Of a stretch of DNA of 47,887 nt, positions 38,371 to 46,845 are shown piece after piece. Source of the stretch: Sphingobacteriales bacterium. GTDB taxonomy: Bacteria; Bacteroidota; Bacteroidia; UKL13-3. A program made the position numbers and the translations under genes. The notes beneath the pieces are model-generated. The model saw nothing but the letters and a program-made list of their open reading frames with translations, ran no database searches and was not told where the DNA came from. The stretch spans positions 1 through 47,887 of the forward strand of contig JAJTEN010000030.1 of the NCBI GenBank assembly GCA_021298155.1. Direction: 5' to 3'. How positions within the stretch are numbered: position 1 is the first letter of the stretch; every line of letters starts with the position of its first letter.

Positions 38371-38406
38371 AAAAAAAAGCAGCCCGAAAATCAGACTGCT
38401 TTTTTC
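38371..38406 (-). terminator. Terminator after rpsU
   Basis: On the minus strand GCAG pairs with CTGC, extended by A-run/T-run pairing, followed by eight T residues. It lies about 17 nt after the rpsU stop codon and separates rpsU from xerC, allowing rpsU to be expressed at a higher level. Confidence 0.75.
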
Positions 38407-38422
38407 TATACTTAAGTTATTA

Positions 38423-38617
38423 TTAAGCTTGCTCTTGTTGTTGCATCTTTTGTTTATAAGCTGCACGGATTTTTTGGTGACGCTTATTAATACAAGGCTT
38501 AATAAAAGCCTGACGGCCACGTAATTCTTTTACAACGCCAGTTTTTTCAAACTTCTTCTTAAACTTCTTTAGAGCTCTATCTAAAGATTCGTTTTCTTTT
38601 ACGCTAACATGAATCAT
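38423..38617 (-). CDS. rpsU: Ribosomal protein bS21
   Basis: bS21 is a small 30S protein next to the 3' end of 16S rRNA. It has 64 residues, very basic, with the family motif KKFKKKFEKTGVVKELRGRQ. Published work on Flavobacterium reports that bS21, bS18 and bS6 shield the anti-Shine-Dalgarno in Bacteroidota ribosomes, with Tyr54 of bS21 contacting it; Tyr54 is present here (RAAYKQK). The gene has a consensus promoter, a short leader and an exceptional Shine-Dalgarno, and its own terminator. Confidence 0.97.
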   Translation of the reverse strand: MIHVSVKENESLDRALKKFKKKFEKTGVVKELRGRQAFIKPCINKRHQKIRAAYKQKMQQQEQA

Positions 38618-38622
38618 CGTTT

Positions 38623-38635
38623 GTGCACCTCCTTT
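38623..38635 (-). promoter_or_regulatory. Extended Shine-Dalgarno of rpsU
   Basis: The mRNA reads AAAGGAGGTGCAC, with AAAGGAGGTG perfectly complementary to ten bases of the usual Bacteroidota 16S 3' end (CACCTCCTTT), 10 nt from GGAGG to the ATG. Other starts checked in the window (tuf, yggS, rpoC) have only A-rich leaders. This fits an autoregulatory signal read by ribosomes that lack bS21. Confidence 0.85.
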
Positions 38636-38662
38636 CCTTTCAATCTCCCATTATGGGGGCTG

Positions 38663-38693
38663 CAAAAATAAACATATTCAGGAAATAAGCAAA
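38663..38693 (-). promoter_or_regulatory. Consensus promoter of rpsU
   Basis: On the minus strand TTTG (38693-38690), 19 nt, TATTTTTG followed by C (38670-38663): a full match to the Bacteroidota consensus. The predicted start near 38656 leaves a leader of about 39 nt that contains the Shine-Dalgarno and a CCCAT/ATGGG dyad. Confidence 0.75.
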
Positions 38694-46237: not shown

Positions 46238-46845
46238 AACAAGCCGTTTACTTCCGATTCAATTTTAGCGATAATCGAACCTAAGTGTTCAGAGTTATCT
46301 GCAAAATTTAAGTTATCAACCTCTATAATCAAATGCCTTGGCTTGTAACTACTCACCCAAGCCTCGTATCTTTCATTCAATCGTCTTAGGTAATCAAGTC
46401 GAATGCTATCTTCATAATCACGGCCGCGCTTTTGAATATTATTTACAAGGTGTGGAATGGAAGCACGTAAATAAACCAACAAATCAGGTGGTTTTACGGT
46501 CTGACTAATGCTTTCAAATATCTTTTGATAAGTTTCAAAATCTCGTGTACTCATCAAACCCATACTATGTAAGTTTGGGGCAAAAATATGCGCATCCTCA
46601 TAAATAGTTCGGTCTTGTACAATGTTCTTTTTAGTCTTTTGCAATTGCAACAAAGTATTGTAACGCGCATTCAAAAAATAAATTTGAAGGTTGAAACTCC
46701 ATCGCTGCATGTCTTCATAAAAATCCGAAATGTATGGATTGTCTTCCACATCTTCATAATGTGGCTCAAACTTATAATGCTTAGAAAGCAATGTAGTTAA
46801 TGTAGTTTTTCCTGATCCGATATTACCGGCAATAGCTAAATGCAT
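46234..46845 (-). CDS. Deoxynucleoside kinase
   Basis: This is a 203-residue kinase of the dCK/dGK family that phosphorylates deoxynucleosides for salvage. It shows a P-loop (GNIGSGKT, 7-14), the ERS-type motif DRTIYEDAHIFA (from 78), and the lid region with RGRDYEDSIRLDYLRRLNERY. The nucleoside preference cannot be read from sequence; deoxyadenosine or deoxyguanosine is usual for Bacteroidota homologues. ATG 46843-46845 is chosen, since the P-loop then starts at residue 7 as in the family. It is divergent from the metallo-hydrolase gene. Confidence 0.92.
   Translation of the reverse strand: MHLAIAGNIGSGKTTLTTLLSKHYKFEPHYEDVEDNPYISDFYEDMQRWSFNLQIYFLNARYNTLLQLQKTKKNIVQDRTIYEDAHIFAPNLHSMGLMSTRDFETYQKIFESISQTVKPPDLLVYLRASIPHLVNNIQKRGRDYEDSIRLDYLRRLNERYEAWVSSYKPRHLIIEVDNLNFADNSEHLGSIIAKIESEVNGLF

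Follow-up and report, generated by a model that had tools for sequence, protein, structure and literature searches.

Autoregulation of ribosomal protein bS21 in Flavobacterium johnsoniae is the closest described system. In this species, ribosomes without bS21 expose the anti-Shine-Dalgarno (anti-SD) sequence and translate rpsU, as established by direct experiments (McNutt et al. 2023, PMC9976891). That paper surveyed the loop across Bacteroidota in 2023 and inferred it for Chlorobia and for four of the five Bacteroidia orders, on the criteria that no other ribosomal gene pairs more strongly than rpsU and that the rpsU pairing lies below -13 kcal/mol. The 70S complexes that wild-type ribosomes make with rpsU mRNA were also reported to be unusually stable, and moderate Shine-Dalgarno (SD) sequences to occur on rpsR and several other ribosomal protein genes in certain Bacteroidia (PMC9976891). 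Chryseobacterium-type Flavobacteriales (Jha et al. 2021, via PMC9976891) obey the same principle, with the rpsU leader following the anti-SD. Fibrella is listed as lacking CCUCC (PMC10783764). Phages encode bS21 of the same protein family, for which a conserved aromatic residue was reported by Chen et al. 2022 (PMC9723584).

The locus described here lies in a window of 47,887 nucleotides, the whole stretch of DNA analysed, from an assembly (G000) of 2.5 Mb in 71 contigs, rated 98.7% complete. It resembles the F. johnsoniae system in the extended SD of rpsU (9-13 bp, below -13 kcal/mol), the SD-poor genome and Tyr54 of the product (PMC9976891). Unlike that system, it belongs to a different order, in which the SD is found in 9 of 14 genera, and its 16S tail reads GGACCACC. 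It differs from the Chryseobacterium type in having the canonical CCUCC; a CCUCU variant was found elsewhere in the class, in one genome. The observation is real, strong and conserved, and the kind of mechanism is already known.

The rpsU locus and its pairing with the 16S tail

The whole assembly gave a single bS21 match, rpsU, even at E-values up to 10. The best PDB chains for its product were bS21 of 9i5v and 7jil, and chains of 7jil and 9i5v also gave the best alignments for bS18 and bS6 of this genome; 7jil is the F. johnsoniae ribosome (PMC9976891). The leader reads ...GAAAGGAAAGGAGGTGCACAAACG-ATG on the minus strand, with the ATG at 38617-38615 and the 10-mer AAAGGAGGTG at 38626-38635. 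One 16S gene was found in the same assembly, and its 3' tail (...TGGTTGGACCACCTCCTTTCTAGAG) ends GGACCACCTCCTTTCTAGAG. With the mature 3' end taken as predicted from the gene, the SD GGAAAGGAGGTG forms 12 contiguous pairs with GGACCACCUCCUUUCUA at -20.9 kcal/mol, calculated with ViennaRNA duplexfold (free_scan was used in PMC9976891). The original prediction of ten bases complementary to the 16S end, 10 nt from the ATG, was thus confirmed, the helix adding one G-C and one G-U to the ten pairs. The ATG is 10 nt from GGAGG and 8 nt from GGTG. The 16S end carries CCUCC, whose absence had been named as evidence against the prediction.

Table 1. Features of the rpsU locus in the window
Feature	Position	Strand	Basis
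rpsU, ribosomal protein bS21, 64 aa, Tyr54	38423..38617	-	ORF; phmmer to bS21 chains including 7jil, E 3.7e-16
Extended Shine-Dalgarno GGAAAGGAGGTG, paired over 12 contiguous bases with the genome's 16S tail	38626..38637	-	Sequence and pairing
Spacer CACAAACG, SD helix to ATG	38618..38625	-	Sequence
Probable Bacteroidota-type -7 element TATTTTTG, then GCAGCCCC	38663..38670	-	Sequence; same arrangement upstream of 16S
Probable -33 element TTTG, 19 nt from -7 element	38690..38693	-	Sequence
Terminator-like hairpin and U run 3' of rpsU	38371..38407	-	Fold -20.1 kcal/mol, z -4.8

Upstream of the leader, TATTTTTG is presumably the Bacteroidota -7 element, from the consensus TAnnTTTG, and TTTG is taken to be the -33 element on the same footing. 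The layout TTTG-N19-TANTTTTG followed by GCAGCCCC is common to rpsU (38663-38693) and the 16S rRNA gene (L001 near 3216), both on minus strands. A loose pattern for this layout had one additional match in the window, within rpoB. A sigma-70 promoter scan showed no excess over shuffles (2 vs 2.3), and Rfam at the gathering threshold returned tRNAs only. The terminator-like hairpin after the gene, which is absent from the output of the consensus scan, suggests that the rpsU mRNA is monocistronic. In the predicted fold of the leader, part of the SD lies in a weak helix with a stability close to that of shuffles (z +0.66). Leaders from the genus of the window often have CCCC..GGGG near the predicted 5' end, and in some of them the C run pairs with the SD. 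A 5' hairpin controlling the SD was considered and rejected, as the 18 leaders of this genus give conflicting folds and the window leader has the z value given above.

Strength of the signal within the genome

The 10-mer AAAGGAGGTG occurs 7 times in 2.5 Mb against 6 for a reversed control pattern. Five copies fall within open coding frames, a sixth is the 16S tail read in complement, and the seventh belongs to rpsU. The 10-mer itself is therefore not enriched, and it is position which makes the rpsU copy special. The pattern AGGAGG-N5-11-ATG had 83 placements genome-wide (41+42) against 55 for the reversed control. Rescanning AGGAGG gave 85 site/ATG pairs, and six starts survived a crude filter for true starts, which may discard real starts in long overlapping frames (e.g. 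L154, -13.4; L105, -10.2). Among the six, rpsU leads by 7.3 kcal/mol. The other five, named by reading their translations, are nuoK-like (-13.6), rsmH-like (-13.1), alpha/beta-hydrolase-like (-12.3), Na+/H+ antiporter-like (-12.0) and yajC-like (-11.2).

Pairing energies were sampled over 366 kb (the window and 20 further stretches, about 15% of the genome), which contain 303 ORFs with a length of 100 aa or more. Of these, 297 were scored at their first ATG; rpsU is too short for this sample. The strongest of the 297 leaders reached -15.1 kcal/mol and the longest contiguous run was 9. This top leader belongs to a deoxynucleoside kinase (ATG at 46845, minus strand) with AGAGAGGAG upstream. When every ATG in the first 30% of an ORF was considered and the best one kept, two values at or below -16 appeared (-17.1 and -16.9), both weaker than rpsU. 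SDs are weaker on average: mean first-ATG pairing over the 297 leaders was -1.88, compared with -2.61 for a mock window placed upstream. The average depletion does not reach the strong tail: leaders and mock windows attained -8 in 12 vs 16 cases, -10 in 7 vs 6, -12 in 5 vs 3 and -14 in 1 vs 0.

Among the ribosomal protein genes, rpsU is the strongest of the eight scored (rpsU, rplK, rplA, rplJ, rplL, rpsF, rpsR and rplI). The SDs of rpsR (-12.6) and rplI (-8.2) are moderate, and the leaders of rplK, rplA, rplJ, rplL, rpsF, tuf, nusG, rpoB, rpoC, xerC and hpf range from -3.4 to +2.6 kcal/mol. A search of the assembly for uL14 found none despite its rated completeness, and the bin may therefore lack the S10/spc operon. 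The rpsR and rplI signals agree with the moderate ribosomal protein SDs described for certain Bacteroidia, and differ from Flavobacteriales, where ribosomal genes except rpsU are reported to lack an SD (both in PMC9976891).

Scoring of the starts revealed no crowd of equally strong genes, for the AGGAGG pattern across the genome and for energies in about 15% of it. The original prediction had further held that other leaders are without such a site, which is correct in degree only given the kinase, rpsR and rplI values. Its statement that the genome ignores the signal was right in so far as the genome is SD-poor and went too far in view of rpsR, rplI, the kinase and the undepleted strong tail.

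Conservation, anti-SD variants and residue 54

The order of the window comprises 64 genomes, from one family and 14 genera, in the set compared. bS21 was found in 61 of the 62 genomes searched, and all 61 leaders were read. Scored with the 16S tail of the window genome, 48 of 61 leaders carry an SD at or below -13 kcal/mol. The nine positive genera are g1, the genus of the window (18/18), g3 (4/4), g4 (2/2), g5 (1/1), g8 (10/10), g10 (2/2), g11 (1/1), g13 (8/8) and g14 (2/2), while g2 (0/5), g6 (0/1), g7 (0/3), g9 (0/3) and g12 (0/1) are negative. Among the 18 leaders of g1, mean pairwise identity is 0.98 in the 13-column SD core, drops to 0.60 over the 18 preceding columns and is 0.79 over the 6 that follow the core. 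For the 46 positive leaders that were aligned (48 minus two with a short leader or unsuitable position), the values are 0.87, 0.39 and 0.45. Conservation of the core with diverging flanks indicates that the SD is under selection and that the pairing is kept, not the whole leader. The exact 10-mer followed by ATGATH was found in 28 of 64 genomes of the order and in 18 of 19 of the window's genus; a few of the matches are not rpsU (e.g. in G006, G017 and G023). Leaders were read at all of the best 80 of 568 confirmed named loci, and 18 of the 80 reach -13 against the window's tail; the nearest relatives there are MAGs that include Bacteroidia bacterium MS011, Bacteroidetes bacterium B1(2017) and a pair labelled Chitinophaga pinensis. 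The SD-less rpsU leaders of g2 (L261-L265) have a similar CTCC..GGAAAT.GGAG segment which, by eye, could form a hairpin around GGAG.

A 16S tail could be read by pattern in 13 of the 62 genomes searched in the order. Twelve of these tails are GGACCACCUCC, two of them in the SD-negative g9, and one, in the g12 genome G052, is GGAUCAUCUCC, with UCUCC for CCUCC. In the class, 136 of 396 genomes with a completeness of 90 or more had a readable tail, and 70 were chosen by hand among those listed: every listed non-CCUCC lineage (5 of 9 listed genomes of family f9, and G220, G284, G344, G082 and G307) and 60 canonical genomes across families. bS21 was found in 69 of the 70 and all 69 leaders were read. 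Thirteen of 59 genomes with the canonical core are SD-positive, one of them borderline (G290, -13.2), and 46 are SD-negative. In another genome, G355 (family f52), bS21 was matched at three places; the best match has an SD of -18.3 and the second one of -10.5.

Where the anti-SD differs, the rpsU leader differs with it in two lineages. Family f20 (two genomes) has the anti-SD UCUCA with the rpsU sequence AAAATGAGATG, pairing at -13.6 with its own tail vs -4.5 with the canonical one. In G344, one genome of f61 (L372, G344:C19), the anti-SD CCUCU, from a 16S gene at a contig edge, stands with the leader AAAGAGGTA, at -11.5 vs -7.2. From its sequence, CCUCU with AAAGAGGTA is a covarying pair besides the Chryseobacterium UCUCA type, in one genome. 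Covariation at a second anti-SD variant would independently support functional pairing. Tails with UCUCC occur without an rpsU SD in five genomes of f9 and one each of f64 and f68, scored with their own tails, and in G052, scored with the canonical tail. Among the genomes read, UCUCC was seen only in SD-negative ones (f9 5/5 read, at least 9 listed; f64, f68 and G052, one each), rpsR having been read within the order only. The f64 genome G220 also has a UCUCU 16S copy, and its score rests on the UCUCC copy. The idea that loss of the rpsU SD is accompanied by decay of the anti-SD was taken as a lead only, as 46 of 59 canonical genomes are also SD-negative and g9 keeps CCUCC in two genomes.

Tyr54 is present in all 61 bS21 proteins of the order, including the 13 genomes without an SD. 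These 13 keep bS21 and Tyr54, so the loop is dispensable there. In the 69 genomes of the class, with the SD cut at -11, residue 54 is Y in 12, H in 2 and N in 2 SD-positive genomes, and Y in 44, R in 5, H in 2, F in 1 and L in 1 SD-negative genomes. Tyr54 is neither necessary nor sufficient for the SD. Two genomes of family f2, G331 and G243 (L376 and L383), combine rpsU SDs of -18.9 and -20.4 with Asn54, so a loop there, if present, does not use Tyr54. The residue invoked in the original prediction is present in the product, but it loses weight as evidence, being found in the 13 SD-less genomes and replaced by Asn54 in two SD-positive genomes of another family.

A probable bS21 feedback and its alternatives

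It is very likely that the rpsU leader is the cis element of a bS21 feedback. Complementarity to the 16S tail, exceptional strength and conservation were observed directly in the genomes studied here. In F. johnsoniae the bS21-bS18-bS6 pocket of the replete 30S subunit sequesters the 16S tail, and most genes start without SD pairing; by homology, we infer the same occlusion and the feedback for this genome. In subunits without bS21 the anti-SD would be free and, as predicted from the complementarity, could form the 12-bp helix with rpsU mRNA. Such subunits would translate rpsU faster and would thereby be completed. When bS21 is plentiful, the anti-SD would be hidden again and rpsU translation would slow down. 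The pairing of -20.9 kcal/mol over 12 pairs, the matching anti-SD and the SD-poor genome agree with the published description (below -13 kcal/mol, 9-13 bp; PMC9976891), and from the eight ribosomal protein genes scored the genome would probably count as autoregulated by the criteria of that paper. The extended SD, the matching tail, the SD-poor genome and the conserved pairing favour the autoregulation originally proposed for another Bacteroidota lineage; as news the proposal does not stand, since the 2023 paper already infers the loop widely (PMC9976891). Judging from its size, the order is probably not among the five large orders surveyed in 2023.

A second gene may take part. In the assembly, rpsR (contig C1, 12084-12356) has the moderate SD GGAAGGAG within the 3' coding end of rpsF. 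A search of 62 genomes of the order identified bS18 in 56, and the rpsR leader was read in 50 of these (G006, G038, G039, G040, G041 and G061 were left out). Taking the strongest in-frame ATG, rpsR reaches -5.7 kcal/mol in 36 of 37 genomes of SD-positive genera and in 0 of 13 of SD-negative genera, where the strongest value is -0.9; by genus, this is 8/9 vs 0/5. The lone exception, G050 (g11), has -3.4, with AGGAGG farther upstream of the ATGs tried. This distribution, with the value of -12.6 in the window genome, would fit a control of platform assembly, in which an exposed anti-SD would signal that the platform is incomplete, and rpsU and rpsR alike would react to it. Such control is compatible with the bS21 feedback, and its probability overlaps with that of the latter. 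We regard it as tentative and somewhat doubtful, as the rpsR SDs fall short of the -13 level tied to the published mechanism, the one in the window genome overlaps rpsF, and the tracking of rpsR with rpsU goes back to one event. A tree of bS21 and bS18 (49 genomes, two short proteins, rooted at the midpoint) groups the SD-positive genera in a single clade with a UFBoot of 79. Repeated co-loss of the rpsU and rpsR SDs was accordingly rejected in favour of one event, on this weak tree.

The rpsU SD could also act, without feedback, as a constitutive high-efficiency start for a ribosomal protein that is short and abundant, enough ribosomes having their anti-SD exposed at all times. The leader alone cannot tell such a start from feedback, and the unusually stable 70S complexes of wild-type ribosomes on rpsU mRNA (PMC9976891) would suit it. 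It is nonetheless unlikely, as other abundant ribosomal protein and tuf leaders in the window lack an SD, and in F. johnsoniae an element of this kind reacts to the loss of bS21 (PMC9976891). A purine-rich leader matching by chance or inertia, as might be thought from a bare 10-mer no commoner than its control and mostly placed inside genes, has a negligible probability, because a strong helix at the correct spacing in 48 genomes of nine genera with diverged flanks refutes chance.

Phage-encoded bS21 offers a comparison for the feedback reading. Viral bS21 loci numbered 2 by a first scan and 49 by an alignment-based scan. Leaders were readable for 48 (L386-L433; L434 was too short), and since many loci are near-identical the 24 distinct proteins were counted. 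Position 54 holds Y in 20 of them, W in 2, and R and Q in one each, and is thus aromatic in 22 of 24, in line with the published aromatic residue (PMC9723584). The phage genes differ from rpsU of the window in their leaders, none of the 24 pairing at or below -10 (strongest -9.1). This absence is suggestive only, as most Bacteroidia genomes read also lack an rpsU SD. The main text of PMC9723584 does not use the terms leader, ribosome binding, promoter or untranslated, and no paper on phage bS21 leaders appeared among those listed by a literature search. It is conceivable, though on balance improbable, that bS21 phages exploit the rpsU feedback. Phage bS21 would keep the aromatic anti-SD clamp with its own gene free of an SD, and its loading would close the anti-SD. 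Host rpsU would then be switched off through the host's own feedback with phage bS21 still expressed, and ribosomes would be ratcheted to the phage form. How well the host recovers would then hinge on how strong its rpsU SD is. The contrast between an aromatic residue 54 and no strong SD suggests a concrete experiment.

The present locus places the rare, experimentally proven specialised ribosomes of bacteria in a further group, an order represented by one family in the genomes compared. Within this one family, nine genera with the signal and five without it, with Tyr54 in all 61 genomes, provide a natural contrast in which it can be tested which part of the system needs which.
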